In this document: positions 78 through 28,246 of the stretch, piece after piece
How the letters are laid out: the number at the start of each line of letters is the position of its first letter
Numbering within the stretch: position 1 is the first letter of the stretch
IMG/VR virus record: IMGVR_UViG_3300020457_000035
Span: 1-34,891 of that record
Source of the DNA: a virus
DNA length: 34,891 nucleotides
Strand: one strand, 5' to 3'
Notes under the pieces: model-generated
What the model was told of the DNA's origin: nothing
The model's database searches: none
Seen by the model: only the letters and a program-made list of their open reading frames with translations
Program-made: the position numbers and the translations under genes

Positions 78-81
78 AAGG

Positions 82-4653: not shown

Positions 4654-4658
4654 TTATA

Positions 4659-5879: not shown

Positions 5880-5899
5880 TACTCGCTACAATTTTTAAG

Positions 5900-5907
5900 T
5901 ATTTATG
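5900..5907 (-). promoter_or_regulatory. T4-type late promoter octamer upstream of the 406-aa fibre gene
   Basis: The minus strand reads CATAAATA, 20 nt before the ATG at 5879, and it overlaps the stop codon of the giant gene. The match to the late consensus NATAAATA and the similar placement to the two other sites support it. Confidence 0.7.
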
Positions 5908-8900
5908 GGTTTACTTCAGGGTCGATTAGTTCTTCACCATATAAGGAAAGGTCTGGAGCAGTCCAGTCATCAGGAACTTCTGTTTCAACAACAACATTTG
6001 GATTTTGATATCCAGTTCCACCATTAGTAACTGTGACACCAGCAACACCAATAAGTGCCTTAACTTGTCCATCAAATCCAGAGATAGAATCAAGTCTGAC
6101 AACAGGTCTGGATGTATATCCAGATCCACCAGAAGTGACGCTAACCCTCTCAATAAATCCATTGGTTAATACTGCTGTTGCGTCAGCATTTTGACCAAAG
6201 ACAGATCCAAGATAATCGAATGTAATTAATGAGTTTGAAGACTCAATAACAGCAACTTCACGATCACTTACCTCACCTTCAATATCAATAAAGTCACCCG
6301 CTTCAACAGGTGGTACAACCACATCAGCATCAACGTCTGCCTCAGAACCAACGTAAGAGAAGGCAACGAATGTGGATCCAAAACGAGGTATTTCTGAGAA
6401 GATAATTCTAGAACCAACAATCTCAAAACCAACACCAGGTTCCTGAAGAACACCATTAATAGAAACAATAATATTGTTTTCAGGTCTAATCACACTAGAC
6501 TGAACACCATCCGTGAGCGTAAGAGAATAGAAAATATCATCACGCTTGAGGTTAAATGACTGACGTAAAGAATCAAACTCAAATGAGATATCATCAAGTT
6601 GTCTTAGTTTACCAATATAGAAACCAGTAAAGGAAGATCCTAAATCAGGTGGTTCAGTAAACTGAATCTTATCGGAGAATGCGTTATAAGAATTAGCAGC
6701 ACCAGGAGGTTGAAGAACACCATTGATGAATATAAGCATATGTCCTTCAGGATCTGGAAGATATTGTGTACCATTATTAATGGATAGATCAAACGTGGTT
6801 TGAGTACCATCAAATCCTTTGAAGAAACGTTTAACTCTTGCTCTGAGAATTTCTCTAGTAACAATCGCAGAACGATAACCGTAAGAACCTCTAATACCAT
6901 CTCTTCCACTAAATGTTCCTGAGATGTTAGTGAGATATAATCTCTTATAAAGACCAGCATCACGAATATCTTGTATTAAACCTACAGCACCACCATCAAC
7001 CTCAAGTATATTACTAATAGTTGCAGATCCCTGTAATGTAACTCCGCTTAAACCATAATCTCCAACTGTGTTACCATTATTAATTGTTCCATTAACAGGA
7101 ACATAGTAGATGTAATTATTAGCAAGATCAACTTCAGTAATATATCCATAAACTGATGTATTCTGAGCAGTACCATTAACTTGATATAATTTATTACCAG
7201 GTTCAAATGTATTAAAGTTAGAATCAACAGTAACAGTCAAACGTCTGTGTCCAATGGATGCAACCTTTTGACCAACCTCAAGATCAAGACCTTCGTACTT
7301 AGTAACTTCTAGATATTCTCTAGAAGATTCTGGGAAGACAACAGAATTGACTTCAAGAGAACCCAATAAAGTTTCAGTATCAACAGTTAGTACTCCACCA
7401 CTGTTATCTGTTACTGCTGCTTGATTATTTTCAAAGACGACTGGTTTTGCGGTGTTAGCACTAGTATATCCTTTGAATGGTATATCAGTTTCAAAGGATC
7501 CTCTAATGTCAATGACATGTAAGCGATCTTCAATAGCACTAATTTGTGCGGTTGTATTATTTGTGGCACCAACAATGGTATCAAGAACTGAGAATGTTCC
7601 ACCAGTTATTGCAACATCAAGATACTTAAAGTTTGCATCTGTAGCAAATCCGTAAACTACACCAGTAACACTAGAGTCTCCTGATTTTTGAACAACTTCA
7701 TTCATTACAAAAGGACCATCTGTGATGTTACCATCAATCCTAAATCTCTTATAAACTTTAGCAATTTTTGCTTCGTTTAATCTTACAGTTTGAATTTCTG
7801 CATAGAGATCTCTATCATTAGAGTATATAAAGTCAGATCCAATAATTTCACCACTAATACCAACAGGAATATCACGCTCACCAAAGTCTTTAACTGCAAC
7901 AGTCAATCCATTGTTTTCACTAATAGTTGTGTAGTAAATATTAGACTTCAGTTGTTCCTTGATAATATCGATACTAGTTCTAACAAATGAATTTACAGTA
8001 TCTGCGTTGTAATTTGTAGCAGAGGTTGAATCAAAGAACTTAGAGAAACTAGCATTGGTTGAAGGACTTATCAACTCATTGCTCAACGCACGACCAACTT
8101 GATCTTGCATTAAGTCAAGAGCAAATTTCTTAATATTAAACTCTGCGTTAGCATAAAACTCTTGTCCACTAACAGCAATATATGTTGCTAATAGTTGATT
8201 TGTAAGTTTTGCACCCCAAGCAAATACACCAGCACCACCAGTGACATCAATAATATAGAAACCACCAACACCTGTAGTTGTGTTTCTTCTTGTTGCATAT
8301 GCAGCAGCATAAAGTTTTCCATCAAACAATTCTACTGCACTACCGAAAAATTCTCCATCCTGTGCATCAACAGCAGTTTCCTCAACCACATTAGTTCCAT
8401 CAAGATCGTAGACGTAAACAATACCTCTTTCATTACCAGCATCTTCATCTTGTTGTGCTCCAATCGCAATCTTGCCATTATCAACAGCAACAGAACTACC
8501 GTACATATCGGTTGAAGCACGTCTACCAACAGGTGCATACAGTTCAACTTCATTAGTTCCATCAAGGTCATAGATATTTGCCTTACCAGAACCTGTGATT
8601 CCGTTTCCATTTGCAAGATAAGAACCAACTACAATCTTGTTATCACCAACAGCAACCTTATTACCAAAACCACCTTGACCACCACCTTCAGGATTAGAAG
8701 ATGTAATTATAACTTCACCAGTTCCATCTAAGTTATAGACATAAACCTTTCCATTGCTTCCAGCACCTGGTACACCAACAACCAATTTACCGTTACCAGT
8801 ATCGATTGCCATTCCAAAGTTATCGTTAGATGCTTTATCTGATGCAGTAATGGTTCTTACGTAATTACCATTGAAATCAAATACAAAGACAGCACCTTGA

Positions 8901-11900
8901 TTAGAACCACCACTAGAAGTAAACTCAGGACATCCAACAAAAAGTTGACTGTTAGCAATGCTAACTTGCATACCAAAGAATTGACCACCAGAACCAAGTG
9001 AAGCACCAGTAACATCTGTTATGTCAATTTCAAGTTCTCCAGATCCATCTAAATCATAAAGATAAGCAGAACCAACATTTGCAACTCCATTTACTGTTGT
9101 TCCATAAGCACCAACGGCAATCTTGTTGTTTCCAATCGCAACATCATAACCATACTTCTGATTGTCATTAGCATTGTTAGATTCAAGTTCAATTTCATTG
9201 GTTCCATCTGCATCAAAGACACGAGCAGTTCCATTATTATTGAAACCAGAAGAACTATCATTATAACCACCAATAACAACCTTACCGTTTCCAACATCTA
9301 TAGATCCATTATATCCAAAGTAAGAATTTTGTTGAGTGCCAGTAGGACTAACTTTAGTATTTGTGGAAACTCCAGTAAAGTTATCAACCTGCGTGATGTT
9401 ATCTAGAACATTAAGTTTATTTTTAAGATTAGAGAAACCAAAACCAAACTCAGCAGTAATGTATAATCTATACCATCCATTACCAAATGGAATCGCACCA
9501 TGATCAATAACATTAAGACCAGGTTGAACAAATAGAGATCCTAATGTTCCTGTGTTTAAATCAACTTTAAATTTAGCATTTACAGTTCCACTATCCAAAA
9601 GAACTTGGAATTGAACATTATTATATTCAGATGCTTTAACAAACATAGATGATGTAAATGTTTGAGTAGCATTAGTAGCACCAGTGTCAAATGTTTCATT
9701 AGTGCTATCAAATGTAGTTGCTCCACTGTCAAAGGTATCAAAGGAACTTAGAGCATAAGTTCTTTCAATAAAATGTTCACCAGTTGTTTCAGTTACCGAT
9801 ACTTTATCGGAGGTAGTTGTAGCATCTGGAGAAATGCCTGTATTTGCAGTAACATTTACTAAAGTCTTAGACCAATTTTGATCAAATTGTTCTGGTAAAG
9901 TCCATAAGTTAGTGTTACTAATAGAACCTTCAATTAGAGAAGAAATTGCAGTAGCACTTTCAATGGTTTTAATATTACTAATATTGTTATACCACTCATG
10001 TGCTGGAGAAACACCGTCAACAGCAACTGTTCCTGTAGCACCATTAGATGTAAGACTAGCACCATCACCATATACACTTCCAGTTATAGCACCAATAATT
10101 AAAATTGGAGAAGAAACGTATAGAATTTCTGCAGTATTTGTACCATCTGTTATGGTATTACCTACAACAAAAGTTCCAGAGAAGGATTCAAGAGTTATAG
10201 TATATGCAGTTCTTGTGTCTCCAGTATCTGTTGTAAACAAGTCATACTGTAAATTATTAACAGTATCAGTAATAAAGGAATCATACTGCCAAGAATTTGT
10301 TCCAAACTGATTATTTACAGTAGAAGCAATTTCTGCTTTATAGTAATTTTCATTAAAGAGGATATTCTTAATTGCACTACGTGCCTCAACATCACCAGGA
10401 GCAATTGTTTCTAGAGCAATCTCAACAAGTTTTCTCATTCTAAATGCTACTTTAGTAATGTCTGTTGGAGTTTCAGTATCTCTATATGCTGAATCATTTG
10501 TATGAAGAGCAGCATATTGATCTCCAGTTACACTAGATCCTGCACTGTATAATAAATTTCTGATTGCTTTTTCAGCAAGCATCTTAATTTGCTCATGAGC
10601 AAAGTAGAAAGCAAATAATTGAGTATCGATATCATCAGAAATTCTAAGATCATTAGATAAGAATTTTTGCATTTGAGTGATCGTACTATTATCACCACCA
10701 GTTTGAAGATCAGAAATCATCGCAATGATGAAGTCTTTAATGTAAGTTGTGTATGTGGAACGGTCGTAAGTTAGTGCAGAGAAAGTACCATTATCAACTG
10801 TATATCTCAATTCTGCACCAAGTAATCCGTTCTGACTACCACTGTTGCGTCCTACGATTTCTTCAGCAATATATTTTCTATTGAAATATAATCTATCAGC
10901 AGCAATATTAAAATCATTATTAGTTGGAGCGATTATATCATTGATAGTTGCAATTAAATTATCAATCGCACTCTTAACATTTGCACATCCACCTGGATCA
11001 TTAGTGATTCCCCAATCACCAGTAATAATATTATTAGTATTAGTATAATCAAGATCACCAGTAATCGCTTGCTTCATGTAGAAACCTAATCTTTCATGTG
11101 CAAATACAGATTGCCATACTTGAAGTCTAACGTGTAGAATCTCATTATTAGTGTTTAGATAGAACTTAGCAGCAGTAACTGTGTTTGCATTACCACCAAA
11201 TTCAATATCTTTTGCAATTTCTCCAACAATGATTCCTAGGTCAGTTTTACAACGTTCAGTTCCAGCATCATTACCGCCAGAGTTTCTAGGCATTTCCAAG
11301 ATAAGATCTGGATATCTTGCAAGCATATCAGCAGATGCTTTGTCAACAATAACAGAACTATTCTCTCTTATTAATCTTGCTGCATCACGGAATCTATATT
11401 CATCTTTATTACCAAGAAGATTAGTATAAACATAATCGTTAGTACCATCATGATATGTTCCGACAAATTCTCCCTCTAAGAAAGCATCAACAGTCGCACC
11501 AACGAATTCAATTGCTGGAGTAATTCTAGAAACTACAGCAAGGTGATCAGCATTTTGATCATTAGAAGTTGTACCAATTGCTTCACTAATAGTATCTTCT
11601 ACAATATCTAAAAGATTATTAACTGTAGATACAACATCTGCACATCCCAACTTAGTGTAGTTAAGAACAAGAATGCCGTTTGGAGTAGAACTATTATAGG
11701 TATGAGCATACCTATCACCAACAGGAGATGCACCCACATTTACAGTAAATGTATTTGTTGTTACTGCAGTAACTTTTAAAACTTTATTGTAGAATGGATC
11801 TTTGTTCTTACGAGGATATGCGTGTGTAGTTTCATTATTATCTTTATCGCATGTGAATACTAATGATTCTTCATCGATCCTAATTAAACTATGAGTTGTA

Positions 11901-14900
11901 AGTCCATGACTATTAGATGTAATTACTAACTCACCTGTAGTAGAATTGTAAGTCGTACCTGCATCAGCAGTCAACGTTGTAAGTGTCTGATAAGATTGAT
12001 CGGTAACAGTTGCATCAGTAAATTGACTCAACCCATGACTACCCGCAACAGTAATAGGAATATAATTTACAATAGAACTCATTAAACCTTGAACTGTTTG
12101 TAAACCAGTTAATAATGAGTTATCATCGGTTGTTGTGTAACCAACAATACCACTGACACTAGCACCACTTCTATCTACAAGAGCAGCAGATGCATCCCAA
12201 ACATGACTGTTGCTACCATTACGCATATCTTGGACTAATGCTTCTAAAATTGTCTTATATGTGGAGGTGAAACTAATAGAAGTTAATTCTTGTGTATAAC
12301 TCCATAAGTATGCAGCACCAGCAGAAGAGTAATTTGAAGGATCAGCAAATTGAGCACCAAGTATAATTTTGTTAGAACCAACAGCTAATGCATTATTGAA
12401 ACCAGGATTATCAAATGCAACTGCAGGTGCCATGACCAAACTTTCTTCATTTGTACCATCAAGATCAAATGCATAAAGTTGACCAGAGTTTTGAATCGCA
12501 CCAGCATCCCAGTATGGAGATGCAGCAAAAATCTTTCCTTGAGCAACTGCTACTGCAGCACCAAAGTTATCTACAGAACCAATATCAGATGCTTCAATTT
12601 TAAATCCTCCAGTTCCATCTAAATTATAAACGAATACTGCTCCAGCGTTAGCTGTGTTACCTGTATTACCATCGTATCCAGCACATCCAACAACAACCTT
12701 GTTTTCACCAACGGCAACTGCACTACCAAAGTTATCAGTGGCGTTTACAGCAGAATCAGTAATCTTAACTTCATTAGTTCCATCTAAATTATAAACATAA
12801 ACTGCACCAGCATCTTGTGCAATTGTATCTTCTTTCATAGAACCAACTACAAGTCTATTGCTACCAACAGCAATACTCATTCCAAACTGATCTCCAGTAG
12901 AACCATCACTAGGTTCAATCTTGGTTTCATTAGCACCATTTAAATCATAACGATAAACAGATCCACGTTTTGAAGTATCTCCAGGTGCACCAACAAAGAT
13001 GTAGGTATCTGTCATTGCAACAGACCAACCGAAGTAATCCAAAGTTGCATCATCAGAAGCAACAATCTTTGCTTCACCTGTACCATCAACGTTGTAAACG
13101 TATACGCAACCAGAATCACTTCCACCATCATCAGTAAATGGAGCACCAACTACAACTTTGTTTCCATTTGTAGCAACAGAATATCCAAACTGATCATTTG
13201 CAGCAGCATCTGATGCGTTGATGACTACTTCACCACCACCGTTAAGGTTATATACATATGCTCTACCAGTGTAATTGTTGTATCTTGGAGCACCAATTAC
13301 AATCCTATCAGTAGTTCCATCATTAGAAACTGCAACTGCACCACCATAATATGAATCGTTTGTAATTGAAGATTGTGTTAATGTTGTTGGAGACTGTAGT
13401 GCATCAAATTGGAATGGAGATGCCTGAACTGCGGCATGGTTTCCTTCTTCAGCAATAAGATCGATATTTTTCTCTACTGAGTTTGCAGCATCATAATATC
13501 TGTGAGTTTTATATTCAGTTGTTTTAGCAGCAACACCAACACGAACAGTAATTGTTGTAGCAGTTACAGCGTTGATAGATAATGCTTTTCCAGATATAGG
13601 ATCAGTAGATCTTGGATAGGTGTGATAAGATGTATGATTATCAGCATCACAAGTAAAGGTAAGTCCGTTATCAGCAATAGTAATTCTATTACTTGTAGTC
13701 AAACTATGAGAACCAATTTCTAAGATAAGATCTCCCGTTGCATAGTCATAAAGTGTGCCAGATGCAGCAGTAAAGTTTCCACTAGCACCATTACTTGCAG
13801 TAAGGGCATTAGTAACACCACTTACAAAATTATGAACTCCACCACCAACGAAGGATGGTAACTGACCTTCAACTGCACCAACATTAACTGTAATGGTTGT
13901 AGCAGTTACAGCAGTTATAGCAATATTTGTTCCAGCTACAGGATCAGATGCTCTTGGGTATGAATGGTTGGTTGAATGACCATCTTTGTCACAAGTAAAT
14001 GTAACAGCACCAGTAGCGATCTGAACAGTATTGCTTGTAGTCAAACTATGAGAACCAATTTCTAATACAAGATCTCCAGTAAGAGCGTTGTATGTTGTTC
14101 CAGATCCTGCTGTCACAGCACTACCAGAATTAGGAGTAATACCTCCAGTAGTTCCACTTACGAATGTATGAACTCCACCAGTTATGATGGGTTTAGCACC
14201 TTTAACTGTTCCAACATTAACTGAAATAGTTGTTGCTGTTGTTGCGTTTACTCTCAATGCATTGTTAAACGCTGGATCAGTAGAACGTGGATATGAATGC
14301 TCTGTAGCAAAATTATCCTTATCACAACTGAATGTTAGTGAGTTAGCAGCAATTCTAATACTCTTTCCTATTGGTAATGAATGAGAACCAATAGTTAGAA
14401 CTAATACACCTGTATTAGCATCATACGTAGCATCAGTAACATTAAATGCTACAAGTGGAGATGTTCCAACATTAACTGTAAAGGTATTTGTAGTTACTGC
14501 AGTAATAGCAAGAGTTTGTCCTGATGCAGGATCACCAGGTCTAGGATATGGATGATGTGTAGTATTGCCATCCATAGCACACTTGAAGGTCAATGCATTA
14601 TCAGCAATCGTGATTGTATTCGAAGTTGATAAATTATGAGCATCAGATGTAATAACAAGATTACCTGTGTTGGGTGTGTATGCTGCGTTTGTTACAGGAT
14701 TTGGCAAATTACCAACATTTGATGTAACACCATTAGTTACAGCAGAAACAAATGTGTGACCGTAGTTTCCACCTGATTCAACTGCATTAGCAGTAGCACT
14801 TACAAACTTATGGAGTCCACCATACTGTCTATTAGTTTCAGTTATTGCACTATTGTTAAACTCTTCACCATCAGTAAAGGATTCTCCACCAGACCAATCT

Positions 14901-20900: not shown

Positions 20901-23900
20901 CGATTAGTATAACTTGCAAACCATGCAGTATCAGCCCAAGCAAATGTTAATCCATAAGATGCTACTGGTGGAATTGTAGTAACATCAGATGGCATATCAG
21001 GAGTAATTGCCCTATTCTTAATTACTAAATTATCTACGTAGTACTGACCTTGTTCATTCTTTCTAAATTCTCCTGTAGTACCTGACCAACCAGGAATATT
21101 ACCAATATAAAGATCTTTATCCTCAAGATCCGTGTCACTAATAGTACCAGTAAGAATTTGTACACCATTTACATAAGCAGTAAAGGTATTACCTGATTTC
21201 TTCAATCCAATAAACTGCCAAGTATCATCAGCAAAGAGTGTGGTTTGTGTAGATTGAAGAGCACCACCAGCAGCACTAATAGCAGTGCTATTATTAGTAA
21301 CAACTAACTCTAATCTTCCACCAGCATCATAATAGAACCAAAGACCACCAGTGGCATCTGTAACATCTCCAATACCAACTAGAGTTTGTTGAGTTTGTGA
21401 GAGTGTTTGAGAGTTTGCAGCATCCTTATACAACATGAACTCAAGAGTCCAGTCATCACCAAGTTTTTCTTCTAATTGTGCTGCAGGAATTTTAATTGCA
21501 CCGTTAACCCAAGAAGAATTAGAACCTGCAGGATTATAACCATAGATCTTAGCAAGTCCACCTTCGTACTTAACAGAATCAGTAGCACTGAGTGTTGTTA
21601 ATGTATAATGTCCAGTAGTATCTGTTGCATCTGATGCAAATTCACAAACAACTTCATTTCTATTCCAAGAGGTTTGACCGAATGCATATACATCACCTGA
21701 ATTATCTACAGTAATTGCATTAACGGTTATACCCTCAATATTGTTTTTATTAAATTCTGTATTTGTATGTTTCTTTAACTTACCATCATATCCAATTTTA
21801 GCATTGTCAACTGTTCTATATCCATTGGTACTATCAATTCTAGTATAAGCAAGGTTTAGATCACCAAAGATATCAATTGTAGATCTAGTTGCAAGTTCAA
21901 TAGAGTTTCCTGTAGGAACTACATATCTGTAATTCCAAAGTAAATCTCCAGAAATATCGAATTTACCAACCCAGAAACTATCTTTAGTATTATTGTCAGT
22001 CTTAAGTGCTAACGTAGCAGTAACATAAAATTCGTTAAATTCATCAACTGCTAAACTGGTATTTCTAAATGAATATGCAGTATTGTTGATTTCTTTAATC
22101 CATTCAACAGTAATTTGAGAAGTTCCGATAAGAACCTTACCAAACGCCAATCTACTATCTGCATTTCCATCAGTAGTAGCAGTTTCCATAATAAAATATA
22201 CCGCATCATCTAAAACAATCAAATCAGTGATTTTTTCAGATCCAGAAGCAGATGCTAATTTTCTTTTAGCAGCAAAGGAACCTGCAGCATCAATAGAAGC
22301 AATAAAAGCGTCTTGTGGATTAGAGGAATTAGTATTAGTAAATCCACCGATAATGTAACGAGAATCAGAATATTTTTTGACTGTAGTAACATGGTCTGCT
22401 CTAGTAGAACCAGAAATACCTGAATAACCTTTTTGGAAATTAAGAGTTGCACTTAGTCCATCAATAGCCTGAGTGTATTTTACTAAGATAACATCTGGGT
22501 TGTAAGCAGTAAGAATTGAAGAATTTGGTTTATTATGACCAACTACCCAAATAATATCTCCACTAACGTCAAGTTTAATAAATTCGGTATATGTTTCACC
22601 ATCTTGACTTTCTAATGTTTCCTCCCACTCTTTTACACCAAGTTCTGAGAATTTTGATATGAATGCAACTTCATTACCATTCACATCAAGAGTTTTACCA
22701 CAGAAAAATACATCCTTCTCTTCATTTACAAAAACATCATTAACTTTGACGTAATCTTCATTTTTAATCAACGCAACATAGTAATCTGCCTTTTTAAAGA
22801 TTTGAGGATGACTTAAAATAACTCTAGGATCTTTAGTGTAGTCAACTCCTGAGTTTATAATGTTAACACCACTAATCGATCCTGTAGAACTTACAGTTGC
22901 ACTAAGTTCTGCAGATTGACCATCTCCATCAATAACAATTGTTGGTGGAATCTCAGAATCATATCCAGATCCAGATTGATTAACAACAATTTCTTCAATA
23001 CCTTTAAATTGTCTGACAAAATACTTTTTATTTGTCTCATCCATGATTGGATTGTAAGAGACAAATACTTGATCACCAGCAACAACGTTATGTGGTGTAC
23101 TTGTAGTAATTTTACCGATAAAGTCATCACCTTCAGTTTCAAAAGTAAATGAACTAATACTTTCACCTTTAATCTTTGAAATTCTAGCAGATACGCCTGT
23201 TCCATCAGTATTTTCATTATCAAAAACAAGAATATCATCAACCTGATAATTTTGACCAGAATCTTCAATGATGAATCCATTAACAGAAGCATCTTCAAAT
23301 TTAGTGGTTGTTTCAACTTCAATATCAACTTTAGAATCAAATCTTACTGATGGGAAGTAATCAAATAACTGTAATGGTGATTCTTCAAAAATTTGATCAG
23401 GATCATTTGCTTCTTCCTCGTCAATAACACCATCTCTGTTTTCGTCTTCTACTTCAAATAACAGAATATCTCCATTTTCAAGAGACAATGCATTTGTAGA
23501 AGCATTTGGTGCTCTATCAACGTCAATGTCAACATTTTCGTAAGGATCACGATATCTAACAACACCAGAGGGAATATTTTGTTGAACTGCGTCTTTGTTT
23601 AAATTCCAAGGATCTGCAATAGAATTGAAACTAGGACCAAGAACATAAGGGAATACTGCATTACCCGCTTCAGTAGTATCAATAGTAATAAAGTAACAAT
23701 ACCTACCTTCAGGGAAATCTGGAGTTTTACAGAAACGACCATTATACTGATCAAGATCTCCTAATCCGAAAGAATACTCATAGTCTTCAATAAATCTACC
23801 AGCTGCCTCATCAGAGAGTAGAGGACCAGATTGTCTAACTGGAGTTGGATTAGAAATCTCGTTATAAACTAAATTTTCCTTAAGTCTATAAGAAGTGTTC

Positions 23901-26900
23901 AAACGTACGATATTTGATGATTGATCTGTAGGATCATTGTATCCATAAGGACCATAAATTGGATTACCATCAAATGCCCAACCAATAATAGGAGAGTGCT
24001 CTAATTGTGAATCTTGTTCTAAGATAGCACCAGTAATACTTTCAAATAAATTATCACCAAGAATGTATCTTAATCTCTGAGGATTGGAAATGTGAGCGTA
24101 TTCACCACCATATTGGTTATTAAATCCAGCAAATACTGAACCTTTTGCAGTATCAACAGTTGTAGTCTCTTGTAAGTTATAAGTCCATTCAAATACAGTA
24201 GGTTCAAAGGTTGCATTAGAACCAGCAGAGGTAAGATTGATTATGGTCGTTCCTTGAACATAGTTAATACCACGATTAAGAATTTCAATATTTGTTACTC
24301 TTCCAGCATTCTCACCATCAGTATCAATAGTTGCTTTTGCAACAGCACCAAAACCATCACCTTGAATAGTTACTTCTGGTGCAGTGGTGTATCCAGTACC
24401 TGCAGAAATAATAGCAATAGAGATGATTCGACCGTTATTAACAATTGCCTGAGCAACGGCACCAGTACCAGAACTTAGTACAACACTAGGTTTAGTTGTA
24501 TAAGAATCACCACCATTAGTAACAGCGATTGATTGAATAGGACCACGAACAGAAGCAGTTGCTGTAGCACCAGTTCCACCGCCACCAACAACAGTAATAC
24601 TTGGTTTAGATGTATATCCAGTACCGCCGTTGTTTACAAGAATACTAGAAACCACTCCTTTAGTTACAATAGCAGTTGCTGATGCACCAGATCCATTACC
24701 ACCAACAATTGAAATCAATGGAGATGAAGTATATCCAGAACCACCAGAATCTACACTTATTTCTGTAATAGATCCATTAACAGTTACGGCACCAGTTGCT
24801 CCTTCTCCTCCACCTCCAGAAATGGTGATATTTGGAGGAGATGCAGCATCATAGTCAGAACCAGCATTAGTAATGTTGATTGATGTAACAGGACCAAAAG
24901 TTTTCCTAATACTAGACTTGTAAGACCAAACAGACGTACCATTAATCCAAGTTCCAATAGGACCAGGAATAATTGAGTCCTTAATTGAAATAGTTGAAGG
25001 TTGTAATGGGAATCTGTTTAATTTACGTTGGTTACCAGGTAAAAGTGCTGATCCTGGAAAAGGACCGATTTTATAGTTGGGAATACCAGTAGAAGCAACA
25101 TAAACGTAATTGTCATCAAAGAATGAGTTTTGGATATTTGTTGTATATGGTCCGATAGAGTTAAATACAGCACTATTATCAGACTTACCTTTATTAAGGT
25201 CAACAGATACAAGAATATTTCCTTGAGGTACTACTTCTGCTGTTTGTGGAAGTTCGTATTGGAATACTGTAGTACTATCTCTAGATGTTACTAAGAAAGT
25301 TCCGTTATAGATGATTGGGTTTGCACCATATACAGTAACCTGATCTCCAACCAACAAACCATGGTTATTAGCACAGGTAACTGTTGCAAATTTATTATCA
25401 ATACCACCAAAGGTGATACTATTGACAGTTAAGAGTTTTTTGACGTTATATAACCAAGTTTGCAATTCTGGTTTGTCAGAACTACCACCAAGTTTAGATA
25501 CAGAGAGTTTATCTCCTTTTAGGTAGTAAGATCCAGTATCAGTAAGAACAGTTTCTTGTGCATCAACAATACCAACAATATTTAAAACAACTTCTTGTGC
25601 AGTTCCTTTATTAACGAATACTTGAAGGTTGGAAGTAATTTCAGTTGCAGAATCCCAATCTTCTACAGTCCCATTTACAGAACGTGTACACTCAATAAAC
25701 TGGTTTAATGATTTTTCCTTATATTGAATAAGTTCTGTACCACCAATAATAAATTCACCGTTTCTTTCTGGCCAACCAATTGTAGAGTCTACAGTAATAA
25801 TACTATTAGTTGTATCTAAAGGTTCAGCAAGTTTTGTTTTATATGGTACTACGAAAGAACCATCAATAGTTTCTTCAGATAAAACAAGTTCGAATAATTC
25901 AACATCAGAAGTCTTAATAGAAATGTAATTTTCAATTAAAGCACTTGCTGCCCTAATATTTGGGTCTGCAATACTTTCTTCCTGAGTTAAGAGACCATCT
26001 TTAATATTTGTAGGATCTCCACTAACAAGAGTTGCTCTAAGAATAGTATCAATAGACCAAGTTGCTGCAGATGGTTTAGTAATTTGATCTTTTGGATAAG
26101 AAACTGTTACTTGCTCACCATACAGCAATTTAAACAAATATGCGATACTAAATGAAGTTCCTTTTGTAGAATAAAAATCTTTTACAGATTTAATAGCATT
26201 TCTTACATCAATCTTAGTAAAATCAAGTTCAGGAACATCAGGTAGGAATTGTTCTGTATACTTATCTAAAAGTCTCTTAACAAACAAAGAATCAAGACAT
26301 TTTACATTAGCATCCTCTTCTGCTACAGATGCTCTAGTATTATTTGAAAATACTGCGTTTCCATTTGAGGTATATTCAACAATACCACTAACTGCCCTTG
26401 CACAACCCTCAAATTTTGCTTTAGTGTAATTTTTTCCTTTTTTAGAGACTGAAAAACCAGTAACTTCATTTAATCCAATTTGTACAGAAGATCTTGCTTC
26501 TGGAGGATTTTGGATAATAACCTGAGGAGGATTTGAAGAAGAATATCCTGATCCAAAATTGGAAATGTTAATATCAGTAATTTTACCGTTAAAAACACTT
26601 GCTGTTGCTGTAGCACCAGTTCCACCATCTTCTGCAGTATCAACAATGTAGACAGATGGCACATCATCGTATCCACTACCACCATCTAACAATTCAACTG
26701 AAACAACTCTACCATCAGAGTCAACAAGAGTTTGTAATACTTGAGCACCAGTAGGATCGATAATTGCTACTCTAGGTGTTGTTTCATATCCTTGTCCATT
26801 ATTGATGATATTAATAGCAGTAACAACTCCATCAGTAACAATTGCTTTCAAAGTAGCTTTTACAGGATCTTGTCCTGTTGGTTCATCAACATATACCTCT

Positions 26901-28246
26901 GGTACAGTTGAATATCCCTGACCACCTTCTAATACTTCAATAGTTCCAGAAAGAGACCCTCCTGTAAGCGTAGCTGTTCCAATTTTTGCTCCGCCTGGTT
27001 GTTTAAACGTAACTCTAGGAACAAATGTATATCCACTACCAGAATTTTCAATTTCAATGTTAGAAACAGCACCGTTAGTAACAGTTGCCGTTAATTTAGG
27101 CAATTCAGCATCAACATTAACTGGATTTTGTACAATAACAGTAGGAGGGTTTGTATCACTGTATCCCTTTCCACCATCAAGTAAAATTGCTTCCTTAATA
27201 CCATTAACCAGAGCATTTGCTGAAGCACCAGAACCTTCTGGGTGATTTATAGAAACTCTTGGTGGATAAGTATACTCATATCCACTTCCAGTTTTACTAA
27301 TACTAATAGATGTAAGTTCACCATCATTATTAACACGTGCATATCCTACTGCAGCAGAACCAAATGTAGGAATAGGTGCTTCAATAGAATATAATGATAG
27401 AATTCTTCCATTTAAAGGTGCTTCATTAAAAATGAACAAATCACCATCAATGAAAAAGTCTACTTTTGGTATAAGGAGTTTATTATCGTAAACTGCTAAA
27501 ATATACTCATCTGCAACAGGTTCATACTTATTACCCCCACTTGTTAGTTTGAATTCAGTCTTACCATCTCCGAAAGTTGCCGAAATATCATCAATATTAA
27601 TAATACTGTTTTCAATAAAACCACTTAAGAATGTAATATAGGTATTGATACTGTCATCTCCAGTAACTCTAGTTCTTGGAGCAGTTGTAAAGACAATATC
27701 AGTTCCATCAACGTCATAATCAACATCAGGAATTAAAACTTCTCCATAAAGACTAACAATCAAGTGTTGGGGAGTAGGAGCAGCAATTGGAGACGATTGA
27801 GAAGTAAGAGGGAATCGAACTCGTACTCCATCAAACAAATCAATGATTTGAGCAAGTCCAGTCCACTTTAGTTTTACTTGATCATAAGAAATACCAGGAC
27901 TTAGTGCAATATTTGGTGCTGCTGTACTTGATTCATAGTAAATTACTTCATCACCAATTAAAATAGAACCATTTGTATCTAAAAAATTATCAACACTCTC
28001 AACAACGATTTCTTGACTATCTTCTGTAATTGCTTCTACAACTTTAGTTGCACCACCTAAGATGTTAATATCCAGTTTGTCAATATCAAGATATTGCAAA
28101 AAGTTATTAATAATATTTTGACCCAGACCCGTTTTTTCTTGAGATCTATAATAGTACTCAATAAACTTATTAAACAGTGGATAATCTGTCTTTAGAAACT
28201 CAGGAGCCTGAGAAGCAATAGACTGGGAGACCTTATTAATATTCAT
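5903..28246 (-). CDS. Giant modular virion/tail-fibre protein in the gp7 slot (7447 aa)
   Basis: One uninterrupted 22.3-kb frame encodes a protein of roughly 0.8 MDa (estimate). It starts 6 nt after gp6, where T4 has gp7. The N-terminus (DYPLFNKFIEYYYRSQEKTG near residue 21, KLLYGEQVTVSYPKDQITK near 710) and a later block (SYYYQDFSYAVKS near 3450, then HPASFKVFGEL near 3480) resemble segments I recall from cyanophage baseplate-associated structural proteins. Between and beyond lie, by approximate residue: GY repeats (306-615, 1116-1332, 1749-1815, 3026-3232, 7350-7440); YHYH domain (1410-1545); EF-hand-like loop (1601-1612); kelch/SBBP-like propeller (1818-2203); LamG folds (2260-2415, 4280-4440); seven unfamiliar 100-aa repeats (3950-5515); FG-GAP propellers (4958-5320, 6300-6678); and helical modules (5320-6010, 6685-6775). 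It is probably an exceptionally long fibre or arm for host contact. No good ribosome site precedes the ATG, so coupling to gp6 is likely. It may represent several fused structural genes. Confidence 0.9.
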   Translation of the reverse strand: MNINKVSQSIASQAPEFLKTDYPLFNKFIEYYYRSQEKTGLGQNIINNFLQYLDIDKLDINILGGATKVVEAITEDSQEIVVESVDNFLDTNGSILIGDEVIYYESSTAAPNIALSPGISYDQVKLKWTGLAQIIDLFDGVRVRFPLTSQSSPIAAPTPQHLIVSLYGEVLIPDVDYDVDGTDIVFTTAPRTRVTGDDSINTYITFLSGFIENSIINIDDISATFGDGKTEFKLTSGGNKYEPVADEYILAVYDNKLLIPKVDFFIDGDLFIFNEAPLNGRILSLYSIEAPIPTFGSAAVGYARVNNDGELTSISISKTGSGYEYTYPPRVSINHPEGSGASANALVNGIKEAILLDGGKGYSDTNPPTVIVQNPVNVDAELPKLTATVTNGAVSNIEIENSGSGYTFVPRVTFKQPGGAKIGTATLTGGSLSGTIEVLEGGQGYSTVPEVYVDEPTGQDPVKATLKAIVTDGVVTAINIINNGQGYETTPRVAIIDPTGAQVLQTLVDSDGRVVSVELLDGGSGYDDVPSVYIVDTAEDGGTGATATASVFNGKITDINISNFGSGYSSSNPPQVIIQNPPEARSSVQIGLNEVTGFSVSKKGKNYTKAKFEGCARAVSGIVEYTSNGNAVFSNNTRASVAEEDANVKCLDSLFVKRLLDKYTEQFLPDVPELDFTKIDVRNAIKSVKDFYSTKGTSFSIAYLFKLLYGEQVTVSYPKDQITKPSAATWSIDTILRATLVSGDPTNIKDGLLTQEESIADPNIRAASALIENYISIKTSDVELFELVLSEETIDGSFVVPYKTKLAEPLDTTNSIITVDSTIGWPERNGEFIIGGTELIQYKEKSLNQFIECTRSVNGTVEDWDSATEITSNLQVFVNKGTAQEVVLNIVGIVDAQETVLTDTGSYYLKGDKLSVSKLGGSSDKPELQTWLYNVKKLLTVNSITFGGIDNKFATVTCANNHGLLVGDQVTVYGANPIIYNGTFLVTSRDSTTVFQYELPQTAEVVPQGNILVSVDLNKGKSDNSAVFNSIGPYTTNIQNSFFDDNYVYVASTGIPNYKIGPFPGSALLPGNQRKLNRFPLQPSTISIKDSIIPGPIGTWINGTSVWSYKSSIRKTFGPVTSINITNAGSDYDAASPPNITISGGGGEGATGAVTVNGSITEISVDSGGSGYTSSPLISIVGGNGSGASATAIVTKGVVSSILVNNGGTGYTSKPSITVVGGGGTGATATASVRGPIQSIAVTNGGDSYTTKPSVVLSSGTGAVAQAIVNNGRIISIAIISAGTGYTTAPEVTIQGDGFGAVAKATIDTDGENAGRVTNIEILNRGINYVQGTTIINLTSAGSNATFEPTVFEWTYNLQETTTVDTAKGSVFAGFNNQYGGEYAHISNPQRLRYILGDNLFESITGAILEQDSQLEHSPIIGWAFDGNPIYGPYGYNDPTDQSSNIVRLNTSYRLKENLVYNEISNPTPVRQSGPLLSDEAAGRFIEDYEYSFGLGDLDQYNGRFCKTPDFPEGRYCYFITIDTTEAGNAVFPYVLGPSFNSIADPWNLNKDAVQQNIPSGVVRYRDPYENVDIDVDRAPNASTNALSLENGDILLFEVEDENRDGVIDEEEANDPDQIFEESPLQLFDYFPSVRFDSKVDIEVETTTKFEDASVNGFIIEDSGQNYQVDDILVFDNENTDGTGVSARISKIKGESISSFTFETEGDDFIGKITTSTPHNVVAGDQVFVSYNPIMDETNKKYFVRQFKGIEEIVVNQSGSGYDSEIPPTIVIDGDGQSAELSATVSSTGSISGVNIINSGVDYTKDPRVILSHPQIFKKADYYVALIKNEDYVKVNDVFVNEEKDVFFCGKTLDVNGNEVAFISKFSELGVKEWEETLESQDGETYTEFIKLDVSGDIIWVVGHNKPNSSILTAYNPDVILVKYTQAIDGLSATLNFQKGYSGISGSTRADHVTTVKKYSDSRYIIGGFTNTNSSNPQDAFIASIDAAGSFAAKRKLASASGSEKITDLIVLDDAVYFIMETATTDGNADSRLAFGKVLIGTSQITVEWIKEINNTAYSFRNTSLAVDEFNEFYVTATLALKTDNNTKDSFWVGKFDISGDLLWNYRYVVPTGNSIELATRSTIDIFGDLNLAYTRIDSTNGYRTVDNAKIGYDGKLKKHTNTEFNKNNIEGITVNAITVDNSGDVYAFGQTSWNRNEVVCEFASDATDTTGHYTLTTLSATDSVKYEGGLAKIYGYNPAGSNSSWVNGAIKIPAAQLEEKLGDDWTLEFMLYKDAANSQTLSQTQQTLVGIGDVTDATGGLWFYYDAGGRLELVVTNNSTAISAAGGALQSTQTTLFADDTWQFIGLKKSGNTFTAYVNGVQILTGTISDTDLEDKDLYIGNIPGWSGTTGEFRKNEQGQYYVDNLVIKNRAITPDMPSDVTTIPPVASYGLTFAWADTAWFASYTNRYDYIDYVGFGIKTDKDSDSDRLGDKGVQVNTNVGFARTAITPVTGISLTASNTGFALGGGGLQALDFEDATTIMIVNPTDTSVTYSRDIWSARTATVPSPGSKKLSIDAKVKNRYYMKTTSTSKIDNVQELTINQDFNITIGSKLVLNNSSGSFINSGYVLSVDKTNKKVYLAVNNNDWSNDLNTGLLSTTRFDEQDTFGITGPFVSDENIISEYNFLNVINTTPGTFDIDLNDWNLDRTASTGSGNLDDFAKFKPFAADVYSVRIDEISGSSSFITGSVVQITASDITFNTAKTTAQITNLTGVTKITLIANLDKLLQATAVANTDQVYVITGNRHYLSVGDNIFVDGNPTRTDGGTAYDEYDGSFTVETVVSNREFTYKLDSVAITSPADTPANVNIFVKSPVLKMYYGHQYQFDLSHSSMVGANISFSKDNLYKLEYSFNSIERIGTPGITGENQAAPTVKLKIDQDIVTNISYYFDPSRTGDESPIDPNSYLDIVDSPYVGTFTVSEVDGATITTGATIIKFPLINEPEGNANVNRATYTTSSKKAVGSIGDIRLINTGGFYAKLPVVTGIQSSRKIERVQINEPGTEYAVGTYNSIPIGGDGEGGLVSIVVADGTNDEGDTIPGQIQSVTITSPGKGYTTANIDIESIDGILGPGLAGSGAEIDVVIPPFGTGAVVFAKGTNVGKIKKLKNNNFGYDYPHDYTLRPEITFPINAQLTSTSILDSITVNDPGSGYSQAPAVVITGGGGSGAIAEAAIRNGRIEQIFIKDPGAGYSSAPVVSLRSSFNYVVNLDLGLLQFAFPHGIQNGAEVSLNVVDTGQGIEFPLASGAIGRLNGNTTYYAIAGTANSLESDQLKLAITKANADLGDAITFANAGEGRQQVLTESFGAEATANVITSTFLEGELVYQGDSLANATATGYVSTNEGWQVGPRILKIVDYVGTFSQGQSVTGAISKSSGVISDLKIAKGVLEVGPITKTTGQFIDDVGKPSEIIQKIQDSYYYQDFSYAVKSSVSIDDWKDILIKNVHPASFKVFGELNIDEYGYTANKEIDFELTKSVELARDATVPNIQSFALAEPIYSEFNNTEVLFRQKRLTSSENILTSVVQRLDNISQLFDGERTQFPITVNGENVIANANQLLIVLNGVAQTPDTAFEVQGDSIVFAEPPQPPASVKYVNVVINQVSTKTLRFPPNSGIFPSIGNELVGVSSTARLTVTSVSGDTITGFVTQGTFLLSEQCQVSATGFSGALLEITDVTSNGLFGFNETVSNLTGDTAIVESINLETGQETPIADLRYSIGAASTSIEVVSSSSETDAPVTAGTFTIGENYQLASEIFRVDSVSNGTESTTLIVTRGLLGTAAISHQEDTPLYSTEIEVTNNLTLSKTTGTYQSTPGLYDIQTGDTIIGAKSGVVALVTATSAYQDPETLEFIEQVNISAGSSFFGLLFNRLTSVTYPNIILDDISKSQVSIVDFDDNLSAFDSKFPANESISNNILTYDSSNNHTYVGGTSTNALTFNDSSTKDVTDATYNNETGVLVLTIGSHSYTTSNTVTIGVDKLAFTCDLDNNSTVHYYPREGDPAYNTALAITAVSATTITVNVGVGGAFVDNEFIRNYRIRYGSNSGEFAVGENFRVKKLTLTDDVGEGFFSQGQIIRTEDTKAEIVGYSQARKTIYLGKIGRTQSTGQDFHQATFVAGAELNTHHAKFGSACLGLSAGTSAHTFVSGVTNAIVASNGATGSFTAATGTTYNPFTGDMVLEIGTHTLTTSNKVTIANDGVVFTCAQDGNNSNKAYPRATDPASGTALTITAVTGTTITVNVGVVPIDEYLTIPTSSEFGFATGDFTVETWIKLNSVASGNKTIFDMRSGATELAPYLYIDGANIKYYNNGSVTITGTTNLVIDTWYHVALTRTGTSTKIFLDGSQEGGTYSDSSNYGSTNPIRIGADWDGSEVVTGYFDNFRVSNNARYTTTFVAPKGMFHGDTNTKLLLHFDGTNGQKYTADWSGGESFTDGEEFNNSAITETNRQYGGLHKFVSATANAVESGGNYGHTFVSAVTNGVTSNVGNLPNPVTNAAYTPNTGNLVITSDAHNLSTSNTITIADNALTFKCAMDGNTTHHPYPRPGDPASGQTLAITAVTTNTFTVNVGTSPLVAFNVTDATYDANTGVLVLTIGSHSLPIGKSIRIAANSLTFSCDKDNFATEHSYPRSTDPAFNNALRVNATTATTISVNVGTVKGAKPIITGGVHTFVSGTTGGITPNSGSAVTAGSGTTYNALTGDLVLEIGSHSLTTSNTVQIATGAVTFTCDKDGHSTNHSYPRASDPVAGTNIAITAVTATTITVNVGAVEGQLPSFVGGGVHNFVSGVTNALTASNGASGNFTAASGTLYDYATGDLILEIGSHSLTTSNRITIADNGLTFTCDADNHTSYHTYPRSTDPISGKALSINAVTATTITVRVGVAAKTTEYKTHRYYDAANSVEKNIDLIAEEGNHAAVQASPFQFDALQSPTTLTQSSITNDSYYGGAVAVSNDGTTDRIVIGAPRYNNYTGRAYVYNLNGGGEVVINASDAAANDQFGYSVATNGNKVVVGAPFTDDGGSDSGCVYVYNVDGTGEAKIVASDDATLDYFGWSVAMTDTYIFVGAPGDTSKRGSVYRYDLNGANETKIEPSDGSTGDQFGMSIAVGSNRLVVGSMKEDTIAQDAGAVYVYNLDGTNEVKITDSAVNATDNFGSAVAVGENKVVVGCAGYDGNTGNTANAGAVFVYNLDGTGGFKIEASDIGSVDNFGAAVAVAQGKIFAASPYWDAGAIQNSGQLYAFDLDGTNEESLVMAPAVAFDNPGFNNALAVGSNKIILGAQFADPSNYSSAGAAYLWSYTQELTSISFTSTYKTILEALVQDMRNGSNSHVWDASAALVDRSGASVSGIVGYTTTDDNSLLTGLQTVQGLMSSIVNYIPITVAGSHGLSQFTDATVTDQSYQTLTTLTADAGTTYNSTTGELVITSNSHGLTTHSLIRIDEESLVFTCDKDNNETTHAYPRKNKDPFYNKVLKVTAVTTNTFTVNVGASPVGDRYAHTYNSSTPNGILVLNYTKLGCADVVSTVNNLLDIVEDTISEAIGTTSNDQNADHLAVVSRITPAIEFVGATVDAFLEGEFVGTYHDGTNDYVYTNLLGNKDEYRFRDAARLIRENSSVIVDKASADMLARYPDLILEMPRNSGGNDAGTERCKTDLGIIVGEIAKDIEFGGNANTVTAAKFYLNTNNEILHVRLQVWQSVFAHERLGFYMKQAITGDLDYTNTNNIITGDWGITNDPGGCANVKSAIDNLIATINDIIAPTNNDFNIAADRLYFNRKYIAEEIVGRNSGSQNGLLGAELRYTVDNGTFSALTYDRSTYTTYIKDFIIAMISDLQTGGDNSTITQMQKFLSNDLRISDDIDTQLFAFYFAHEQIKMLAEKAIRNLLYSAGSSVTGDQYAALHTNDSAYRDTETPTDITKVAFRMRKLVEIALETIAPGDVEARSAIKNILFNENYYKAEIASTVNNQFGTNSWQYDSFITDTVNNLQYDLFTTDTGDTRTAYTITLESFSGTFVVGNTITDGTNTAEILYVSSPILIIGAITGSVYGDGASLTSNGATGTVAVDGVSPAHEWYNNISNIKTIESATAISSLIEGSISNTNLWTLPEQFDQNWSKTLVNVTANTGISPDATTTSDKVSVTETTGEHFIERTYALSSFDTFDSGATTFDSTNETFDTGATNATQTFTSSMFVKASEYNNVQFQVLLDSGTVNAKFKVDLNTGTLGSLFVQPGLNVIDHGAIPFGNGWYRLYITAEFGFGFSNLKNKLNVLDNITQVDNFTGVSTNTKVSPTGTQQNSYFGYNGSIDVGNGKVVIGGYNDSSSGFNNNGTARVFDADGTNEIELESNNANDNQKYGYDVAIGNNKIAVGAYGTTVNGVANVGSAYLYDLDGSGELEIDITDVTGASLGSGGQFFGMQVSIANSQLFVGCPEFTSSGGSNQGAVFVFDFNGNYVRTITASDKASNDNFGMAIDTGNGKLVVGVPGAGSNGKVYVYNLDGTGEVIITSSNPEGGGQGGFGNKVAVGDNKIVVGSYLANGNGITGSGKANIYDLDGTNEVELYAPVGRRASTDMYGSSVAVDNGKIAIGAQQDEDAGNERGIVYVYDLDGTNVVEETAVDAQDGEFFGSAVELFDGKLYAAAYATRRNTTTGVGGFYIIDVTGGAGVFAWGAKLTNQLLATYIAVSGQEFYANAEFNIKKFALDLMQDQVGRALSNELISPSTNASFSKFFDSTSATNYNADTVNSFVRTSIDIIKEQLKSNIYYTTISENNGLTVAVKDFGERDIPVGISGEIIGSDFIYSNDRDLYAEIQTVRLNEAKIAKVYKRFRIDGNITDGPFVMNEVVQKSGDSSVTGVVYGFATDANFKYLDVAITGGTFSVLDTIVGATNNTTAQISAIEDRLHVIDIRGSFETDIPFKGYTSANTAKPVVFENNQAAVTDNSGGVLTVDTETLLGSLEVNSVVFPESSREYLEVTKYEGLDLEVGQKVASIGHRRLTVTVDSNFNTFEPGNKLYQVNGTAQNTSVYGYITEVDLANNYIYYVPVNGTINNGNTVGDYGLSGVTLQGSATISNILEVDGGAVGLIQDIRDAGLYKRLYLTNISGTFSGRDGIRGSYGYRSAIVTREILRARVKRFFKGFDGTQTTFDLSINNGTQYLPDPEGHMLIFINGVLQPPGAANSYNAFSDKIQFTEPPDLGSSFTGFYIGKLRQLDDISFEFDSLRQSFNLKRDDIFYSLTLTDGVQSSVIRPENNIIVSINGVLQEPGVGFEIVGSRIIFSEIPRFGSTFVAFSYVGSEADVDADVVVPPVEAGDFIDIEGEVSDREVAVIESSNSLITFDYLGSVFGQNADATAVLTNGFIERVSVTSGGSGYTSRPVVRLDSISGFDGQVKALIGVAGVTVTNGGTGYQNPNVVVETEVPDDWTAPDLSLYGEELIDPEVNP
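5935..6840 (-). other. C-terminal tail of the giant protein: paired INGVLQ domains plus GY units
   Basis: The last about 300 residues hold two copies of a small beta domain (MLIFINGVLQPPG with IQFTEPPDLGSSFTGFYIG, and IIVSINGVLQEPG with IIFSEIPRFGSTFVAFSYVG) followed by GY units (SVTSGGSGYTSRPVVRLDSI and TNGGTGYQNPNVVVE). Related INGVLQ-type domains occur near the N-terminus (about 27400-27860) and in the middle (about 17330-17580). The stop codon overlaps a late promoter. Confidence 0.75.
8212..9350 (-). repeat. FG-GAP seven-bladed beta-propeller 2 in the giant protein
   Basis: Residues about 6300-6678 hold a second set of seven FG-GAP-like units, for example NQKYGYDVAIGNNKIAVGAY, DNFGMAIDTGNGKLVVGVPG and DMYGSSVAVDNGKIAIGAQQ, each ending with a YVYDLDGTxExx strand. 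The unit plan matches propeller 1, but the sequences are well diverged, so the two probably arose by an old duplication or separate acquisition. A helical island and a carbohydrate-binding-like stretch (about 6110-6280, with WTLPEQFDQNWSKTLV and FGNGWYRLYITAEF) lie between them. Confidence 0.83.
10240..12280 (-). other. Alpha-helical island in the giant protein
   Basis: In an otherwise beta-rich protein, residues about 5320-6005 (apart from the isolated repeat copy) are mostly helical and internally repetitive. Paired segments include GCADVVSTVNNLLDIVEDTI and GCANVKSAIDNLIATINDII. Others are YRFRDAARLIRENSSVIV, CKTDLGIIVGEIAKDIEFGG, FAHERLGFYMKQAI and FAHEQIKMLAEKAI. Similar helical modules (DAxxLIxxN, CxxDxGxIVxxIxxDIxxGGN) recur, as I remember, in tail proteins of marine T4-like phages. 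They may form a rigid or hinge segment in the fibre. Confidence 0.7.
11705..12010 (-). repeat. Seventh, isolated copy of the ~100-aa repeat
   Basis: Residues about 5412-5515 contain TTGELVITSNSHGLTTHSLI, LVFTCDKDNNETTHAYPRKN, then KVTAVTTNTFTVNVGASPVG. This is plainly the same domain as the main array. It is separated from the array by the first propeller and a short helical stretch, so the propeller may have been inserted within an older array. Confidence 0.8.
12285..13373 (-). repeat. FG-GAP seven-bladed beta-propeller 1 in the giant protein
   Basis: Residues about 4958-5320 contain seven consecutive units of about 50 residues with the FG-GAP pattern: DxFGxSVAVxxxKxVVGAP, a variable loop, GxVYVYNLDGTxExKI, then ASD. 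Examples are DQFGYSVATNGNKVVVGAPF and DNFGSAVAVGENKVVVGCAG. Seven units fit one closed integrin-alpha-type propeller. The loops are rich in Asp and Gly, but no classic DxDxDG calcium loop is evident. Confidence 0.85.
13530..16395 (-). repeat. Array of six unfamiliar ~100-aa repeats around LamG 2
   Basis: Units begin near 16395, 15745, 14765, 14460, 14185 and 13850. A full unit has an HTFVSGVTN-type lead, a TYNxxTGDLVLEIGSHxLTTSN strand region, an IxxxxxTFxCDxD segment, HxYPRxxDP, and an ALxITAVTxTTITVNVG end. The Cys, the following Asp, the His and the YPR-DP group are retained across units, with minor changes such as CAQD or KAYPR in one copy. I do not recognise a named family. Two units share near-identical DNA, suggesting recent duplication. 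A seventh copy lies further downstream, beyond the first FG-GAP propeller. Confidence 0.8.
14950..15430 (-). other. LamG-like lectin fold 2 in the giant protein
   Basis: Residues about 4280-4440 carry FTVETWIKLNSVASGNKTIF, LYIDGANIKYYNNG, TWYHVALTRTGTSTKIFLDG, RIGADWDGSEVVTGYFDNFR, and a final KLLLHFDG. This is a clear LamG_3/concanavalin-like domain, clearer than the first copy. It is inserted between two groups of the 100-aa repeats. Confidence 0.88.
18550..19170 (-). repeat. GY beta-repeat cluster C in the giant protein
   Basis: Residues about 3026-3232 hold further GY units, including QINEPGTEYAVGTYNSIPIG, SPGKGYTTANIDI, DPGSGYSQAPAVVITGGGG and DPGAGYSSAPVVSL. They are less regular than cluster B, and longer spacers separate the first units. 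Confidence 0.75.
21010..21470 (-). other. LamG-like lectin fold 1 in the giant protein
   Basis: Residues about 2260-2415 show the laminin-G/concanavalin-A-like order: WTLEFMLYKD, a strand with LWFYYDAGGRLELVV, DTWQFIGLKKSGNTFTAYVN (the 'W..vaL...g....YvnG' core), and YVDNLVIKNRAITPD at the end. Such folds often bind sugars and would suit contact with host surface polysaccharide. Confidence 0.75.
21640..22790 (-). repeat. Kelch/SBBP-like beta-propeller in the giant protein
   Basis: Residues about 1818-2203 contain about six or seven degenerate units of 50-60 residues. Each pairs a VxGxT-type strand with a D-x-x-G turn and an aromatic W: FFCGKTLDVNGNEVAFISKF, YIIGGFTNTNSSNPQDAFIA, DSFWVGKFDISGDLLWNY and DVYAFGQTSW. 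This is the pattern of SBBP-type seven-bladed propellers in bacterial surface proteins. Blade boundaries are approximate. Confidence 0.6.
23411..23446 (-). other. EF-hand-like calcium loop in the giant protein
   Basis: Residues 1601-1612 read DENRDGVIDEEE, which fits the canonical 12-residue EF-hand loop: acidic or Asn at positions 1, 3, 5 and 9, Gly at 6, Ile at 8 and Glu at 12. Only one such loop is obvious here, so it is more like a dockerin or isolated loop than a calmodulin pair. Confidence 0.6.
23620..24020 (-). other. YHYH domain in the giant protein
   Basis: Residues about 1410-1545 include HSPIIGWAFDGNPIYGPYGY and, further on, DLDQYNGRFCKTPDFPEGRY and NAVFPYVLGPSF. This matches the layout of the YHYH family (a GxAxDGxPIYGP core, then a YNGxxxxTPxxPxGxYxYF block). 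The family is widespread in marine bacteria and phage structural proteins and has no firmly known function. The same domain, interrupted by insertions, occurs in the 1523-aa protein of this window. Confidence 0.8.
24250..24900 (-). repeat. GY beta-repeat cluster B in the giant protein
   Basis: Residues about 1116-1332 contain six regular units of about 33-36 residues, such as DSGGSGYTSSPLISIVGGNG, NNGGTGYTSKPSITVVGGGG and SAGTGYTTAPEVTI. They are more uniform than cluster A, implying more recent duplication. The cluster ends shortly before the YHYH domain. Confidence 0.82.
26400..27330 (-). repeat. GY beta-repeat cluster A in the giant protein
   Basis: Residues about 306-615 hold some seven units built on the pattern GSGYxxxPxVxIxxPxGxGAxAxAxVxxGxIxxIxIxxxG, for example TGSGYEYTYPPRVSI, GGKGYSDTNPPTVIV and NSGSGYTFVPRVTF. 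The spacing of about 35-45 residues and the alternating hydrophobic pattern suggest a stacked beta solenoid or a string of small beta units. Similar units recur later in this protein and in the 974-aa and 1523-aa proteins. Confidence 0.8.

Follow-up and report, generated by a model that had tools for sequence, protein, structure and literature searches.

An open frame of 7447 codons in the gp7 position

The locus described here raises the question of what is encoded by an unbroken reading frame of 22.3 kb that occupies, in a cluster of T4-like baseplate genes, the place of gp7, a protein of 1032 aa in T4. The frame was found in an IMG/VR metagenome contig, from which alone this phage is known to us and whose whole stretch of 34,891 nucleotides is hereafter called the window. 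It runs on the minus strand, like its parts and the gp25, gp6 and gp9 genes given below, from an ATG at 28246 to a stop codon at 5903-5905 (5903..28246), and its 7447 codons, with zero internal stops, specify a protein of about 795 kDa with a pI of 4.4. The gene sits between those of the baseplate wedge protein gp6 (28253..30286; phrog_219, PF21379), which is itself preceded by the sheath initiator gp25 (30286..30705; PF04965), and of the tail-fibre connector gp9 (4659..5879; phrog_677, PF07880), yielding the cluster order 25/6/7/9. The end of gp6 at 28253 leaves a gap of 6 nt (6-12 nt in isolates), as announced in the original prediction, but with the genes read from 28246 down to 5903.

Several lines of evidence bear on the reality of this frame. 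In a set of 40 equally long dinucleotide-Markov windows, stop-free stretches reached 187 aa at most, as compared with 7447 codons here. Over 10,769 nt of the gene, an independent metagenome contig from another sample (L017) shows 99.95% identity. Among 80 related viral contigs, L051 is the only one in which the frame stops anywhere but at the fetched edge, the common start or the natural stop; 46 of the 47 starts are found between 3297 and 3327 aa upstream of the anchor. Using the Nei-Gojobori method to compare three parts of the protein between the window and six relatives, we obtained dN/dS values of 0.10-0.20 (residues 1-3500), 0.21-0.25 (3501-6669) and 0.15-0.35 (6670-7447), i.e. purifying selection along the whole length. 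Neither a frameshift nor an assembly join was found in the window frame, with which the relatives are collinear, and the frame is confirmed as genuine. The gene of L051 carries one frameshift (3660-3703) and is otherwise intact.

Relatives in marine cyanophages

About 290 phage records, nearly all of them from marine cyanophages, have matches over most of the N-terminal 700 residues, of residues 3301-3700 and of the C-terminal 800 residues; when searched separately, the N-terminal, middle and end parts all had cyanophage relatives. The matches to phrog_701 are collinear from end to end, their pieces spanning positions 1 to 6135 of the 6136 of the model. A single gene stands after gp6, and is then followed by gp9, in the isolates P-SSM4 (7312 aa), P-SSM7 (7124 aa), S-CAM22 (6273 aa) and S-SSM5 (6171 aa); the ACG-2014d homologue (6817 aa) has one additional gene before gp9. 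P-SSM4 gp7 (YP_214641), P-SSM7 PSSM7_090 and the S-CAM22 protein (phrog_701) share the place, the core and the constant ends of the window protein, and P-SSM7 is 78% identical to it over residues 1-3950. The window protein differs from these three by its two FG-GAP propellers, another copy number of the HTFVS repeats in its middle part and a slightly greater length. It is an unusually large representative of a family that was known before from phages of marine cyanobacteria. The original prediction saw in it one of the longest phage proteins; it is long, but the 7312-aa protein of P-SSM4 was already in GenBank, under the name gp7, so that the gp7 identification is not new either.

The orthologue from S-SZBM1 (S-SZBM1_208, 'baseplate wedge initiator', 6619 aa, 724 kDa) is 45% identical to the window protein in its first third and, unlike it, has no HTFVS or FG-GAP modules that we could find. 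The virion mass spectrometry called for in the original prediction is published for this orthologue: LC-MS/MS of purified virions detected it with 71 peptides and 13.5% coverage (PMC9146016), the 71 peptides being a count without positions along the chain, which may be cleaved. No long tail fibres were visible on S-SZBM1 (PMC9146016).

A gp7 core in three pieces

Short gp7 families were gathered from viral contigs, and HMMs built from these short proteins alone were used to search 1841 ORFs. They matched three separate pieces of the window ORF, namely N1 (residues 4-57; 28076..28237; iE 6e-7), N2 (residues 659-737; 26036..26272; iE 4e-20) and CC (residues 3419-3489; 17780..17992; iE 1e-19). 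The HMM matches themselves covered residues 4-57, 658-737 and 3424-3489. In each cyanophage expected to have gp7, the same three pieces were matched in the ORF that follows gp6, and in no other ORF of the cyanophage stretches searched; N2 was also recognized in T4 gp7. No match was obtained in S-CBWM1, which belongs to a different lineage. S-CBWM1 gp116, considered as a gp7 homologue, was rejected: it has an NGV module in common with the window protein and lacks the gp7 core.

The three pieces are collinear with the core of gp7s of 700-1000 residues. The short gp7s of Caulobacter phage Cr30 (767 aa) and Melnitz-3 (896 aa), encoded behind gp6, contain the same core in the same order, and they align with the separated pieces of the window protein. 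N1 is a helical piece, probably the counterpart of the gp7 core-bundle helices. It strongly matches short gp7s (hhalign prob 98 with the Cr30 family), and the Cr30 model shows it as helical, whereas its placement on T4 gp7 at about 665-690 is weak and below significance (prob 0.3). N2 aligned with T4 gp7 748-774 (prob 94; score 63.5 versus 23.5 for the best of 40 shuffles) and CC with T4 gp7 826-908 (prob 83; score 48.8 versus 20.4 for the best shuffle), column shuffles and reversals scoring less than half in both cases. N2 holds DFYSTKGTSFSIAYLFKLLYGEQVTV, equivalent to DFYSTKGIEASYKFLFKVLYNEEVEI in T4 gp7. Inside CC, the block formed by SYYYQDFSYAVKS and HPASFKVFGEL (residues of about 3453-3490) aligns with SYYVMKIKSNLPSSRWKSDVIRFVHPVGFGF of T4 gp7. 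On visual inspection, DFYSTKGTSFSIAYLFKLLYGEQV corresponds to DFYSTKGIEASYKFLFKVLYNEEV of T4 and SYAVKSSVSIDDWKDILIKNVHPASFKVFG to YVMKIKSNLPSSRWKSDVIRFVHPVGFGFI; the core segments in common with T4 gp7 can be written as KGxxxSxxFLFxxLxNexV and HPxG. The equivalent of the CC block lies 40 codons upstream of the stop in the Cr30 gene, which supports the earlier proposal that the sequence near residue 3480 ends an ancestral core.

Structure comparisons point to the same family. The short-gp7 profile retrieved T4-type gp7 from the PDB (1.4e-9 and 1.9e-6) with the HPxG motif correctly placed. The AlphaFold model of Cr30 gp7 is mediocre overall (mean pLDDT 51, higher in the core parts; pTM 0.38), with most of insertion 2 unfolded; in Foldseek it matched no PDB entries other than T4-type gp7s at E<=1e-3. 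With VIA, residues 67-729 of this model matched T4 gp7 702-896 (Z 8.8; rmsd 19.8 A across separately placed domains), and residues 64-736 matched the 189-aa wedge chain of phi812 (9euj_D), a fold relative of the gp7 core (Z 7.2; 3.5 A over 111 residues). The fold match to the trifurcation domain was thus made with the short homologue Cr30, N1 lying outside the matched range. As the VIA match spans residues 64-736 of the model, N2 and CC appear to form one domain interrupted by insertion 2.

The giant ORF is therefore a true gp7, with a core of about 200 residues in three pieces, two of which are collinear with T4 gp7 748-774 and 826-908. The original prediction had tentatively placed the gp7 function in the N-terminal part of the frame; the core is present, but it is spread over residues 4-3489 and does not lie in the N-terminal part alone. 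The layout of T4 gp7 is the reverse: about 640 residues precede the core and only about 140 follow it, whereas the extra mass of the window protein lies inside and after the core. In the literature searched, whose coverage is incomplete, we found no description of the three-piece core.

Modules inserted in, and added after, the core

The thousands of adhesion-type residues that had been anticipated in this gp7 are distributed in two insertions and a C-terminal extension. The modules of insertion 1 (601 aa; residues 58-658; 26273..28075) are two of the NGV type and about four of the GGxGY type. GGxGY modules, which already occupy insertion 2 of the short gp7s, recur in insertion 2 of the window protein (2681 aa; residues 738-3418; 17993..26035), together with a YHYH domain (residues about 1329-1525; 23672..24262; PF14240, E 3e-19), which runs into the next fragment, and a Laminin_G_3/ConA-like lectin domain (residues 2249-2391; 21074..21502; PF13385, E 3e-7). 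The C-terminal extension (3958 aa; residues 3490-7447; 5906..17779) has in its variable middle seven HTFVS repeats, each about 100 aa long (residues 3951-5505; 11732..16396), between which lie a second Laminin_G_3 domain (residues 4275-4415; 15002..15424; PF13385, E 3e-19) and the six-bladed FG-GAP propeller 1 (residues 4989-5314; 12305..13282; PF14312, E 3e-52). Further on are a stretch similar to the RcGTA head spike fibre Rcc01080 (residues 6106-6164; 9755..9931; PDB 6tb9, E 1.4e-8), the seven-bladed FG-GAP propeller 2 (residues 6289-6665; 8252..9382; PF14312, E 2e-27) and a conserved C-terminal block (residues 6670-7447; 5906..8239). Altogether, the protein has at least 10 GGxGY, 5 NGV and 7 HTFVS units, 2 LamG domains, 1 YHYH domain and 13 FG-GAP blades in two propellers. 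These repeat units were defined by iterated profiles; a BLAST self-comparison gave no rows, and no tandem repeats were found at the DNA level. A LamG-like stretch, 37% identical to window residues 4274-4423, also occurs inside a short gp7 ORF of the Cr30 type (L104, 6270-6710).

Residues 1-3900 and 6700-7447 are common to the relatives, and the stretch up to the end of the core is well conserved and nearly constant in length, whereas residues 3950-6650 are much more variable. In this middle part the homologues have from 0 to 13 HTFVS copies, and six large isolate homologues have no FG-GAP propeller. Relatives of propeller 1 occur in only 21 phage records; propeller 2 is an in-frame insertion relative to S-CAM22, which displays a clean empty site at homologue residues 5478|5479. 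The C-terminal block (778 aa in the window) measures 776-798 aa in 29 distinct relatives and is strongly conserved. Its residues 7201-7350, 84% identical to six isolates, are the most conserved part of the extension and match the conservation of the core. The model of this block is confident only at about 6829-6911 and 6977-7133; it had no PDB match at E<=1e-3, and its strong matches in BFVD were the same cyanophage proteins.

Growth of the gene and other readings of its identity

The three-piece core makes it possible to compare gp7s of very different lengths. The sizes of insertion 1, insertion 2 and the post-core tail are 2/519/40 in Cr30, 107/358/226 in Melnitz-3, 102/1770/968 in S-CAM3, 97/2315/1798 in P-HM1, 607/2681/2676 in S-SSM5 and 601/2681/3958 in the window (E-values attached to the insertion sizes derive from iterated HMMs and are optimistic, which those of the short-gp7 HMMs are not). 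The tail covers 968-3720 aa in the other cyanophages. P-HM1 gp7 (4446 aa), S-SM2 gp7 (4156 aa) and the S-CAM3 protein (3045 aa) have the same three-piece core as the window protein, from which they differ by an insertion 1 of only about 100 aa and a shorter extension.

These sizes bear on the suggestion, made in the original prediction, that residues beyond about 3500 may come from a gene fusion, in which gp7 would have merged with a gene downstream of it. It is true that the core ends near 3490 and that short gp7s stop 20-650 aa past it. Against such a fusion, the later part was never found as a gene of its own in the isolate homologues examined or in the short-gp7 contigs, where its single match lies inside a gp7 ORF, and the tail grows in steps (226, 968, 1653, 1798 and 2676-3958 aa). 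The only record with a split gene is metaG-MbCM1, a metagenome assembly in which the breaks lie near residues 1893 and 4463, and not near 3500. We regard a fusion as improbable, and stepwise gain of modules fits the data better. Two further readings call the gene itself into question. As the window is a metagenome contig, the frame could be an assembly chimera or could never be made as a single chain, an idea that retains hardly any credibility in view of the second contig (99.95% identity across 10.8 kb), the collinear isolates, the selection along the whole length and the 6619-aa orthologue present in virions. According to a published statement, cyano- and pelagimyophages lack T4 gp7 and have VrlC in its stead (PMC7029224), and PHROGs lists phrog_701 under head and packaging; the giant ORF would then be an unrelated adhesin. 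Our results contradict this replacement. The core HMMs, the T4 profile match and the PDB fold match locate the gp7 core in the post-gp6 ORF, and VrlC ORFs gave no short-gp7 HMM match in the stretches searched, so that we consider the adhesin reading very unlikely.

The annotation of metaG-MbCM1 (L284, 2679-22445) divides the giant gp7 into three genes, including a 'gp14 neck protein' and a 'YadA domain structural protein'. As the homology continues in the same frame, in-frame stops or gaps in the assembly seem to account for the splits.

A possible role as adhesive arms on the sheath trigger

It is known that gp7, which forms the trifurcation, joins two gp6 molecules in a core bundle below the sheath initiator gp25 (XM1, PMC10457771; T6SS papers), and that XM1 gp17, a minimal gp7 orthologue of 242 aa, holds the tail spikes, which are separate proteins, via its loop 80-106 and its C-terminal tail (PMC10457771). 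In the giant gp7 the insertions and the extension put adhesion-type modules on the same chain, in a manner that might correspond to the XM1 loop. We think it very probable that the ORF is the gp7 of the (gp6)2-gp7 wedge of a T4-like marine cyanophage (Kyanoviridae), and that its module strings would serve as adhesive arms on the sheath trigger. The N1 helices of the universal gp7 core would bundle with two gp6 helices, and N2 and CC would jointly form the trifurcation domain, with module strings spliced after N1, between N2 and CC, and from CC to the end. The strings would most likely leave the wedge as long arms with sugar- or protein-binding domains. Each virion would have six such arms, each in one chain with a sheath-triggering core (about 4.8 MDa for one copy per wedge), and contact with the host could pull directly on the core and thereby fire the contraction. 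This proposal builds on the gp7 membership, core layout, modular turnover and purifying selection observed here, and on the published presence of the orthologue in virions.

The LamG, FG-GAP and RcGTA-spike-like modules argue for adhesive arms, with which the absence of visible long tail fibres in S-SZBM1 is compatible without being a proof. The additions could instead be structural, gp7 remaining a wedge protein and its modules serving as a baseplate shell or spacer that stabilizes the plate. The near-constant length and conservation of the stretch up to the core end, the fixed length and high conservation of the C-terminal 778 aa and the GGxGY modules that fill insertion 2 even in short gp7s would suit such a role. 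We view it as rather unlikely, since the middle part (3950-6650) exchanges lectin, propeller and spike-like modules among relatives, as adhesins do. As for the adhesive arms, a more ambitious version, which we put forward tentatively, unites the wedge protein and the receptor-binding apparatus in one polypeptide: six gp7 arms of ~0.8 MDa would replace T4 gp10/11/12 and the fibre proteins, and in-frame exchange of cassettes in 3950-6650 would change the host range. Since gp9 and other wedge genes are still present, the main receptor binder could be a protein other than the giant gp7.

Giant 'virion structural proteins' are widespread in marine cyanophages under inconsistent labels (gp7, YadA protein, gp14 neck protein, hypothetical). 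The three-piece core locates gp7 among them, provides a simple ruler for insertions between 2 and 2,800 residues long, and singles out the variable part in which host specificity can be tested.

Other genes of the cluster

The window has no ORF of the size of a 2OG-Fe(II) oxygenase between the PAAR protein and gp25, where P-SSM7 and S-CAM22 have such a gene (L002 4830-5420, L003 3245-3835). After gp9, the window encodes a 1523-aa phrog_708 protein with a YHYH domain (82-4653). The phrog_708 protein is named 'baseplate wedge initiator gp7' in S-CAM22, which conflicts with the gp7 identified here. In phages with a gp7 of 3-4.4 kaa (P-HM1, S-SM2, S-CAM3; L006, L007, L013) gp8 directly follows gp7, and in those with a gp7 of >6 kaa, gp9 and/or more structural genes stand between gp7 and gp8.
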